Shown here in pieces: positions 19,179 through 24,794 of a stretch of DNA of 38,790 nucleotides. The position numbers and the translations under genes are program-made. Below the pieces are notes generated by a model. That model saw nothing but the letters and a program-made list of their open reading frames with translations, was not told where the DNA came from and did no database searches. The stretch is taken from NCBI GenBank assembly GCA_022702045.1, contig JAKONH010000208.1, forward strand, positions 1-38,790. The letters are read 5' to 3'. Position 1 is the stretch's first letter. The number at the start of each line of letters is the position of its first letter. This DNA is from Spirosomataceae bacterium. GTDB lineage: Bacteria > Bacteroidota > Bacteroidia > Cytophagales > Spirosomataceae.

Positions 19179-21119
19179 CTATTGAAACAGCAGCGGAGCG
19201 AACCTATACAGGTCGTGCCGCCAGACAGGCCAGGTGTGTCCACCGGCATATTCGCTGTAGCTGTATCTGATGCCCATGTCGTCGAACTTCTTCAGCATGA
19301 TCTGGCAGTTTTGATGCGCGATGTCTTCCTTACCGCCCTGCGAAATCCAGAGGTGTTTCAGGTTGCTGTTGATCGTGCTGGCATTGTCTTTCATGAACGC
19401 ATACTGCGGGTCCGATAGCTTGGTGTTGTTGGCGAACCAGCCCGAACTAAACACGCCCAGATTCGAGAACATGGTCGTGTTTTTGATACCGGCGTAGAGC
19501 GTTTGCAGACCGCCCAGCGACAGCCCGGCCAGGGCCCGGTTTTGCGGGTCGGCAGCCACGTTGAAATTGCTTTCCACGAAGGGAATGACAGCTTCTTTCA
19601 GCTCGTTTTCAAAAGACTTCAGCCCGTTTTCGTTGAAACCAGCCAGTCCGCCTGCGTTCGGTATGTTGCCATCCATCATTACCACAAGCATGGGTTTAGC
19701 TTTCCCGCCGGCAATCAGGTTGTCCAGAATCAGGTCGGTACGGCCCTGCTTCGCCCAGCCGCGTTCGTCTTCACCCCCGCCGTGAAGCAGGTATAGCACC
19801 GGGTATTTCTGGCCAGGATTCCGGTCGTAGCCTGGTGGTGTGTAGACATACATCTCGCGCCAGGCGTTAAGCGGTTTCGAGTAGTAGCGCTTGATACGGA
19901 CGTCGCCGTGGGGTACATCTTTCAGCGCATAAAATTCACCGTCCCGATCCGGAATTTCAATGGCGCTCATCATCCGACCTGACCCATAAATCGTCTCACT
20001 GCCCGGATCGGCCACGGCGACATCGTCGATCACAAGGGCGTAATAATGAATACCCCGGCTGATGGAATCGGTCGTGACTGTCCAGACACCGGCGGTATCT
20101 TTCACCATGTCGTATTTTTTTCCTAGATCGACTTGTACTTTTTGTGCGTTGGGCGCTTTCAGTTGAAAAACTACCCGATTGTCGGGCAGAATCTGTGGGT
20201 ACTTAGCGTTACGTACGTTGGTCGACGCGGGTGTGCCCAGCACCGTGTATGTACTCAGCGACGCAACATCGACGGGCTTGAATAGGAACTGCGAAAACAT
20301 GTACAATCCGTTTTTCCAGACCTTGAAATCGTGCCCACCCGACTCGACGTAATATACGTGCGGCACGTTGTGTTGGTAGAGGTAGTCGTGTGTACGTTTG
20401 CTGAACGGGATCAGACCGTCGGCGTCACCGCACGAAATCCAGAGCAATTTTAGCTGCTTTCTGGCCGCTTCCGGATCGGGCACCAGTTCCTGCGGCAGTC
20501 GGGTGTTGGGGGCCGATGAAAAGCCACCTACCCACGCGAACCTGCTCAGATTGCCCAGCCCAAAATTAAGTGACTGTCCCCCGCCCATCGACAGCCCCGC
20601 GATGGCGCGATGCTCGCGGTCTTTCAGCGCCGGGTACGTTTTCTCCACAAATGGAATCAGGTCGTTGAGCAGGTCTTTTTCGAAGGCAGAGAACGCTTCG
20701 ACTTTATCTTTGTCGAAGATGTTACCTACGGCCCGGTCGTCTTTCATGGCACGCCCGTTGGGCATCACCACGATCATCGGTTCCAATTTTTTGTCGGCGT
20801 ATAAATTGTCCAGAATGAGTTGCGGATTACCACCCCGGAGCCATTCTTTTTCGTCGCCACCGATGCCGTGGAGTAAGTACAGTACCGGGTACTTTTTCTT
20901 TTTCGAGAAGCCGGGGGGCGTGTATACCAGCGCTTTCCGGTTGACGCCCACCGTTTTCGACGCGTACTGTATGCTATCGATCCGGCCGTGGGCAATGTCC
21001 GTGCGGGCAACGTCGAAGCCTTTCGGCATCTCTTTGTCGGCGGGCTGGGCGTAGGTTGCCGTGCCCAGCATCACCGCCAGCGCAGCCGTCAGCCTTATTT
21101 TTGAAAAGGGCAATTTCAT
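19179..21119 (-). CDS. double-domain CE1-type esterase (CE1 + CBM48-like + CE1), putative feruloyl/acetyl xylan esterase
   Basis: 646 aa; two alpha/beta-hydrolase modules, each with a [15 protein letters not shown] block, nucleophile elbows GLSMGG and GLSLGG, and terminal His motifs GGHDFKVW and GGHTWPVW; linking segment [38 protein letters not shown] resembles a CBM48/isoamylase-N domain. Confidence 0.92.
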
Positions 21120-21167
21120 TGGTAGTAGTGAAAAGGTGGCTTTATTTCCTGTCAGTCCAGCGGCCCG

Positions 21168-21234
21168 ATTCTGACATCAGGATGATAGGATTGACCTAAT
21201 GAAACACCCTGTAAATCAGGCCAATCCTGTCAAA
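21168..21234. repeat. imperfect inverted repeat, 'AGGATTGRCCT' type
   Basis: aggattgacct ... aggccaatcct (10/11 pairing) between two CE1 genes; resembles the 13871 element in sequence style. Confidence 0.5.
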
Positions 21235-21238
21235 ACAA

Positions 21239-22496: not shown

Positions 22497-22535
22497 AACC
22501 AGCCGGAACCATGACAAACACGCTGGCGAAAACCA

Positions 22536-23612
22536 CTACCTGAACAACTGCGGCAGTGTGTTGGCGAGGTACAGTTTGCAGTTCATCCAGGTGTGCCCGC
22601 CGGGGACGACAAGCGGTTTAACGACTACTTTCTTCTCATTGAACATGGCAATATTCTGCTTCACGGGTTCGTACAGAAAATCGTCTGTGCCGACGCTGAT
22701 GGTGAAAAGCTTCAGCTGTTTATTCAGGGCATCGGCGTTGGGCGACCAGTTCGTAAAGTTCTTTTTAAACTCGTCGGTGGCGGTGTAAGGTGCGTAAGCA
22801 CAGACGTAGGCAAATTTGTCGGGATTAGTCAGGCCGATGTTCAGCGTCTGTCCCCCGCCGACCGAAAAGCCCGCGACTGCCCGGTGTTTACTGTCCTGTA
22901 CCACGGGATAATTTGCTTCGACAAACGGGACGATGTCGTTCACCATATCCTTTGTAAAATCGCCCATCGGCGCAGGGCGAACGTTGCCGTAGGGCATCAC
23001 GATCAGCATCGGTTTAGCCTTTCCCTGCGCGATCAGGTTATCAGCAATCAGATTGGCGCGACCGACTTTGGTCCAGGTTTCTTCGGTATCGGAGCCGCCG
23101 TGAATCAGGTACAGCACCGGGTACTTCGTTTTGCCATTGGGGTCGAAACCGGGTGGCGTATAGACCAGCAGTTGGCGCGACGTACCCAGCGTAGCGGACT
23201 CGTAAAGTCGGTAACTGATTTTGCCGTGCGGTACGTTTTGTAGCGCATGCACCAGTGGCTTGTCGCCGGGTACGTCGACGATGCTACGTTTGAATCGCTC
23301 GTTGGCAAAAATGTAGGTGTTGTTGGGGTCAGCCAGTTCCACGCTATCCACCCGAAAACTGTACGGATAAATGTCGGGCGTGACGGGCGACACCGTTACG
23401 CTCCAGACACCCGTCGTGTCTTTCGTCAGGGCAACGGGCGCTTTCAGAAATTCGCCGTTCAGCGTCACTTTGCCAGCCTTTTTCGAAAAGTAGCGGAACG
23501 TGACGCTATGGTCGGGATGCACCTCGGGCGAGTTGATGGCCGGAGGGCGCTGGGCCAGTATGGTCATCGACAGCCCGAGCAGCGCCGGAAGCAGGAGTAA
23601 GCGATTTTTCAT
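22536..23612 (-). CDS. CBM48-like + CE1 esterase
   Basis: 358 aa; [83 protein letters not shown]. Confidence 0.93.
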
Positions 23613-23624
23613 CGTCGGGGCGGG

Positions 23625-24794
23625 TTAGCGGAAGAGCAGTGGAACCGTGTCGGCCACGTATGTTTTGACGTTCATCCAGGTGTGCCCGCCGTCAGTAACC
23701 AGGCTTTTGTAAGCAACTTTTTTCGCCTTCATATAGTCCATAAATTCGACCGTGCCTTTGTACAGAAAATCGTCGCTCCCTACGCTGACCCACAGCAGTT
23801 TGAGCTGCTTGTTCGTCCGGTCAGGATTGCCGCCGATCTGGCTGAAGCTGCCGTTCATTTCCTGGGGCGACAGGTATGAACTGTAGCTGCACACCCAGGC
23901 GAATTTGTCCATATTACTAAACGCCGTCCGCAATGTTTGCCCGCCCCCGCGCGAGAAACCACCGATGGCGCGGCTCTCTTCATTGGTAATGGTGCGGTAG
24001 TTTCCCTCTATGTATGGAATCACATTGCGGGTCAGGTCCTCGCCGAAATCGTTGGCCCGCTTTACGGCATCGGCCCCGTCGCGCACGGTTGGGTCAGTGG
24101 GTTTAGCACCGCCTTTCTGCTCGGTAATCCGAGCCTCGATGTTGCCGTAGGGCATCACGACAATCATCGGCTTTGCCCGCCCGGCAGCAATCAGATTATC
24201 GAGAATCAGGTTTGTCCGGCCTACTTTGAAGAAAGTTTCTTCGGTATCGGTAGTACCGCTGATGAGGTAAAAAACGGGATACTTCACCAGATTTTTGTCA
24301 TAGCCCGGCGGGGTGTACACCACCAGTGACCCCGTCGTACCCGCTACCGACGGGTAGTATTCGTAGTTCACCGAACCGTGGGGAACGTCCTGCAAGCTAT
24401 GAATCAGGGGCGTGTCGCCGGGAATGTCGACCAGACTGGCCTTGAACCGTTCGTTCGGAAAAAACGCGACGTTAGCCGGGTCCATCACCGTCACGCCGTC
24501 AACCTGAAAGCTGTAGGGATAGATGTCGGGTTTGACGGGGGGCGTCGTCACACTCCAGATACCCTGCGCGTCTTTGGTCATGGCGAGTAGCCCTTTCTCA
24601 AACTGCGCACTCAGCTTTACATCGGTGGCCTTCGGCGCGAGGTACCGAAACGTAACGGACTTGTCGGTGTTGACCTGTGGCGACACGACCAGCGGTCCGC
24701 GTGGTGGCTGACCGAATGCGACGGTACACAGTCCGAACAGACATCCAGCAAGCAATGACCGCTTCGAACGGGTGGGATGATAACCTACTTTCAT
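23625..24794 (-). CDS. CBM48-like + CE1 esterase
   Basis: 389 aa; NTDKSVTFRYLAPKATDVKLSAQF; YTPPGYDKNLVKYPVFYLISGTTDTEETF, GFSRGGGQT, GGHTWMNVKTYVADTVPLLF; close relative of the 22536-23612 product. Confidence 0.93.
   Translation of the reverse strand: MKVGYHPTRSKRSLLAGCLFGLCTVAFGQPPRGPLVVSPQVNTDKSVTFRYLAPKATDVKLSAQFEKGLLAMTKDAQGIWSVTTPPVKPDIYPYSFQVDGVTVMDPANVAFFPNERFKASLVDIPGDTPLIHSLQDVPHGSVNYEYYPSVAGTTGSLVVYTPPGYDKNLVKYPVFYLISGTTDTEETFFKVGRTNLILDNLIAAGRAKPMIVVMPYGNIEARITEQKGGAKPTDPTVRDGADAVKRANDFGEDLTRNVIPYIEGNYRTITNEESRAIGGFSRGGGQTLRTAFSNMDKFAWVCSYSSYLSPQEMNGSFSQIGGNPDRTNKQLKLLWVSVGSDDFLYKGTVEFMDYMKAKKVAYKSLVTDGGHTWMNVKTYVADTVPLLFR

Follow-up and report, generated by a model that had tools for sequence, protein, structure and literature searches.

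Why a single xylan utilisation locus should need so many esterases, four of them encoded side by side, is the question raised by the window analysed here (the whole stretch of 38,790 nucleotides of contig JAKONH010000208.1 from a Spirosomataceae bacterium); in Dysgonomonas mossii, some of the CE1 domains encoded together have targets that are reported to "remain elusive" (PMC8040265). The SusC/SusD pair, the xylan-type glycoside hydrolases and the esterases together identify the locus as one for xylan utilisation, and its content (GH67, three GH43, two GH10, SASA and BD-FAE esterases, SusD and SusC) is for the most part ordinary for Bacteroidota. The four tandem genes are best explained, with considerable confidence, as the CE1 portion of a conserved locus for (glucurono)arabinoxylan utilisation, with a proposed division of labour among the encoded enzymes. 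The array and its neighbours are arranged as follows.

17956 to 19098, minus strand: GH10 xylanase, downstream of gene A (Pfam; synteny with the array kept in most of the congeners)
19179 to 21119, minus strand: gene A, CE1-CBM48-CE1, 646 aa (PF00756 in two stretches; phmmer; tree; codon positions)
21239 to 22357, minus strand: gene B, CBM48-CE1, 372 aa, wtsFae1A-like (phmmer against 6rzo; tree; NCBIfam NF041944)
22536 to 23612, minus strand: gene C, CBM48-CE1, 358 aa (Pfam PF00756 and CBM_48; phmmer; alignment; codon positions)
23625 to 24794, minus strand: gene D, CBM48-CE1, 389 aa (Pfam PF00756 and CBM_48; phmmer; alignment; model; codon positions)
24841 to 26424, minus strand: carboxylesterase (Pfam; synteny)
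26464 to 27357, minus strand: BD-FAE (Pfam; synteny)
27382 to 28248, minus strand: SASA/CE6-like esterase (Pfam; synteny)
28266 to 38768, minus strand: two GH43, a glyoxalase-fold gene, a split GH95, SusD and SusC (Pfam/NCBIfam)

The carboxylesterase, BD-FAE and SASA genes (24841-28248, minus strand) adjoin the array, a SASA gene is also located at 15172-17112 on the plus strand, and about nine esterase domains are encoded in the whole locus. The GH95 gene (32211-34670, minus strand) is interrupted at residue 444 by an in-frame TGA, either a nonsense mutation or a sequencing error, and reads as two ORFs. On the plus strand, a GH43 gene (12811-13863) and a GH10 gene (13743-15044) overlap by 121 bases when the latter is called from a GTG start, and the GH10 start probably lies further in. 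The SusC-like gene (36582-38768, minus strand) matches TIGR04056 from profile position 295 and runs off the end of the window and contig, and two minus-strand ORFs (3501-5186, 561 aa; 7481-8233, 250 aa) have no Pfam or NCBIfam match. Scans of 17800-26500 for sigma-70-like promoters and terminators gave counts no higher than those in shuffled sequences, and a hand-written Bacteroidota-type promoter pattern found no match.

An ORF check of the window placed four consecutive minus-strand genes at exactly the coordinates given in the preliminary description, which had called them a tandem array of same-strand CE1 genes; all four proteins match PF00756 (Esterase) well above the curated cut-off (68-170 bits against 22), and the motifs quoted there are present in the sequences. 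The same description had counted four CE1 modules with a common N-terminal CBM48-like architecture, which applies to B, C and D, but not to gene A, whose first CE1 module (A1, residues about 26-285) had been missed and precedes any CBM48. Because residues 26-278 of A match the XynZ module (1JJF) and residues 293-646 match the CBM48-CE1 structure 7B5V in phmmer searches, the four genes encode five CE1 modules, those of A being bridged by a CBM48 that lies directly N-terminal to the second (A2), as it does to the CE1 of B, C and D. The Pfam cut-off for CBM_48 is passed by C and D, and the CBM48 of B and A2 was assigned from whole-length phmmer alignment with the solved CBM48-CE1 structures 6rzo and 7b5v, so that Pfam and structural matches together bear out the CE1/CBM48 assignment. 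B is matched by 6RZO (wtsFae1A) at 470 bits over residues 30-371 and, in its esterase half, by NCBIfam NF041944 at 589 bits. A model of D built from a 28-row alignment (mean pLDDT 90.6, pTM 0.84) retrieved wtsFae1B (TM 0.87 by target) and DmCE1B_ct as its best Foldseek matches in the PDB (range 0.86-0.88), confirming the CBM48-CE1 fold of this protein; the AlphaFold model of gene A had low overall confidence (pLDDT 76.6, pTM 0.50) and was left out.

An intact Ser (GxSxG)-Asp/Glu-His triad is present in all five modules (alignment and codon positions): S177/D234/H263 in A1, S534/D599/H628 in A2, S275/E325/H354 in B, S250/D311/H340 in C, and S281/D342/H371 in D, where all three residues are conserved among orthologs. 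Glu serves as the acid in B and in the E modules described below; A1, A2, C, D and F have Asp. By analogy with the D. mossii locus, the XynZ-like A1 and the wtsFae1A-like B are likely to be feruloyl esterases, and A2 probably has low activity or a specialised role. An intact triad is nevertheless no guarantee of activity on ferulate or acetate, since two CE1 enzymes of similar kind, DmCE1A and DmCE1B_ct of D. mossii, had minimal feruloyl esterase activity when assayed with model substrates (PMC8040265). The ester groups targeted on plant xylan are predicted from sequence to be, most probably, ferulate or acetate. Each of the four proteins begins with a stretch that, read by eye, resembles a secretion signal, and what is known of the family suggests that the enzymes may be exported, that CBM48 would pack beside CE1 (except in A1) and form one side of the substrate groove, and that the array esterases would strip ester groups from xylan so that the GH10, GH43 and GH67 enzymes of the locus could act.

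The array extends well beyond this genome. A search of 59 genomes turned up orthologs of D (75-89%) in about 28, and in loci retrieved from 29 related genomes, with all frames scanned, the gene order is fixed as D-C-B-[E]-A, with an optional F ahead of D (F-D-C-B-E-A). The complete set of A, B, C and D modules occurs in 25 of these 29 loci; E, an extra CBM48-CE1 gene between B and A, is found in 13 of the 29, and F, which is absent from the window, in six. The order F-D-C-B-A recurs in a Runella record and in a Bacteroidota MAG record, D-C-B-A in Xanthocytophaga and Rhodocytophaga records, and F-D-C-A in a Paludibacter record; in Flavisolibacter F, D, C, B and A are all present with B displaced. 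The GH10, carboxylesterase, BD-FAE, SASA and GH43 neighbours are often kept alongside. All four genes are under purifying selection (dN/dS against congener G003: A 0.094, B 0.060, C 0.047, D 0.120). The array is an old conserved part of a Bacteroidota xylan locus and not the product of a recent local duplication.

Within this ordered set, the active sites of C, D and F differ from those of the other modules at a few positions; the two sites in D are located as follows.

23949 to 23954, minus strand: D nucleophile S281 and the following elbow residue Arg282 (codon positions; fixed in 29 of 29 orthologs)
24252 to 24260, minus strand: D oxyanion-loop SGT (S179-G180-T181), replacing the HG motif (codon positions; ortholog alignment)

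The nucleophile elbow reads GFSVGG in C (44/44), GFSRGG in D (29/29) and GFSGGG in F (8/8), against GLSMGG in A1 (67/67) and B (48/48) and GLS[ML]GG in A2 (47/47); in the set compared, a part of CE1 made up of about 280 modules found by similarity to the window genes plus five structures, the residue after the nucleophile is always Met or Leu outside C, D and F, save for one Trp in an E-type module. The C, D and F motifs recur in named distant genomes of the 162-row set. The divergence of the elbow residue between duplicates, already pointed out in the preliminary description, is thereby confirmed as a clade-fixed property. In the oxyanion loop of D, the His of HG is replaced by Ser in 28 of 29 orthologs and by Gly in one, followed by Thr in all 29; in two D rows from distant genomes the script gave no match to the HG pattern. 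The lid loop, counted from the GN motif to the next helix, is shortest in C and longest in D, with 8 residues in every C, 31 in every D, 20 in every F, 16 in every B and 22 in every A1. Thr181 and Arg282 of D, two positions assigned by alignment, may have a functional effect. Because the elbow, oxyanion-loop and lid-loop differences are fixed, the split substrate specificity proposed earlier is plausible, and to judge from these residues it is likely for the array enzymes. The different fixed features of C and D would most likely correspond to different ester positions or acyl groups. A more specific reading, in which each of the paralogs C, D and F had its elbow and oxyanion-loop residues changed a single time and fixed from then on, and these enzymes cut esters that ordinary feruloyl and acetyl-xylan esterases do not, is put forward only tentatively.

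It is also conceivable, though rather unlikely, that C and D are dosage-type copies acting on one substrate and that their elbow, HG/SG and loop differences reflect neutral drift, given that both keep their triads and that the CE1 oxyanion hole is formed by main-chain amides (PMC8040265) and need not change with the side chains. Drift is, however, difficult to reconcile with the behaviour of the elbow, the HG/SG position and the loop length, which scarcely change inside a clade although its 29-44 orthologs span more than one order and are variable in the remainder of their sequences. It is less probable still that D is a catalytically impaired paralog retained to bind esterified xylan; the replacement of the HG His by Ser in the oxyanion loop and the Arg after the nucleophile in the elbow could be taken in this sense, as could the near inactivity of the related DmCE1B_ct on model substrates (PMC8040265), but Ser281, Asp342 and His371 are all kept and conserved, and D is under purifying selection.

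The origin of the paralogs was examined by pairwise comparison and by trees. CE1 identities among the modules are 34-45%, apart from C-D at 52.6%, and CBM48 identities are 23-40%, apart from C-D at 56.7%, whereas the shuffled-sequence baseline for the C-D comparison is 23%. Since both domains are closest in this pair, a whole-gene duplication common to C and D is indicated. Third-position identity between them is 44%, so their synonymous positions are well diverged, and orthologs of each are found throughout the genus as well as in further families and orders; the split is ancient, and the "direct duplication" of the preliminary description stands as an old event and not as a recent one. The second subgroup proposed there, B with the C-module of A, is not upheld: A2 and B share 37.7% identity in CE1, no more than A2-C (39.2%) or A2-D (39.3%), and A2 and B (with wtsFae1A) as one clade are rejected (AU p=2.2e-4).

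Trees were built with FastTree (280 modules) and IQ-TREE (162 rows, and a careful analysis of 86 rows), and their main groups agree. In the 86-row IQ-TREE analysis, A1 joins XynZ (100/100), B is sister to wtsFae1A (100/99) and A2 forms its own phylum-wide clade (100/100); of the mutual grouping expected earlier for the four genes, only that of C and D was found. These two fall in a C/D/F clade (100/99), consistent with a duplication series, and are probable sisters within it, with only moderate support (89/68). The tree is divided by a branch (97/87) with A2, B, E, DmCE1B_ct, Bacint_01039 and wtsFae1A on one side and A1, C, D, F and wtsFae1B on the other, and the resemblance of A2 to B noted before is valid only at the depth of this wider clade. 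That successive tandem duplication within the lineage itself recently made the four genes, which are now diverging, is highly improbable despite the tandem same-strand layout and the closeness of the neighbours C and D, because each module has its closest relatives among orthologs from other species, families and orders, and because a single clade of the window A2, B, C and D modules is rejected (AU p=4e-8), as is the pairing of A2 with B. The clade of C and D (with F) would have arisen by early duplication, each paralog then retaining its own fixed features of the elbow, the oxyanion loop and the lid loop.

The array is, then, a series of paralogs in a set order that occurs in several Bacteroidota families. 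Since these paralogs differ at few, clade-fixed active-site features, it becomes directly testable why a single locus should require this number of esterases. C, D and F constitute a distinct and apparently uncharacterised CE1 subfamily, none of whose members was found among solved structures by phmmer (C and D) or Foldseek (model of D), and this subfamily is the part of the locus worth experimental study.

Among known systems, wtsFae1B (6RZN/8BBP/8BF3), also CBM48-CE1, is, of the solved structures, the one nearest to C and D in sequence (phmmer) and to D in fold (32% identity when aligned by Foldseek), but carries a GLSMGG elbow and an HG motif where C, D and F have GFS[VRG]GG and D has SG. 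wtsFae1A (6RZO) has the CBM48-CE1 architecture and the Glu acid in common with B, of which it is a homolog and not the same protein, its gene context differing as far as tested. Bacint_01039 and Bacint_01033 (6NE9, 6MOU/6MOT) have the CBM48-CE1 fold and are closest to none of the four window genes, 6NE9 falling in the E/B superclade. The XynZ feruloyl esterase module of Clostridium thermocellum (1JJF) is matched by A1 at 255 bits and belongs to the same clade, but is fused to a xylanase, whereas A1 is fused to CBM48-CE1.

Fusions of the CE1-CBM48-CE1 type occur in two kinds, a XynZ-like module being followed by an A2-type C-module, as in gene A, or by an E-type one that groups with DmCE1B_ct, as in Bacteroides luti (L217:9896-13085; other fusion loci examined beside 19179-21119 were L132, L133, L215 and L218). 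A free A2-type gene comes directly after the A1-E fusion of B. luti, as though the first module had exchanged its partner. Frames of 904-916 aa in Flavobacterium (L180, L181, L183 and L201) carry A1- and A2-type modules in the C-terminal two thirds, the part scanned, and resemble the CE6-CE1-CE1 enzymes mentioned in PMC8040265.

DmCE1B (D. mossii PUL17, 7B5V/7B6B; PMC8040265) has the same CE1-CBM48-CE1 architecture as gene A and likewise lies in a xylan locus. Gene A is not its plain ortholog, the C-module DmCE1B_ct belonging to the E-type group and that of A to the A2 clade; one clade of A2 with the C-modules of DmCE1B-type fusions is rejected (AU p=5.3e-4), a value that is optimistic because the grouping was picked with the tree already in view. 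Of the D. mossii enzymes, DmCE1B_nt releases ferulate, DmCE1B_ct is nearly inactive on model substrates, and DmCE1A has weak feruloyl esterase activity (PMC8040265). Co-encoded CE1 domains can therefore differ in activity, and various combinations of these enzymes could boost a xylanase (PMC8040265).
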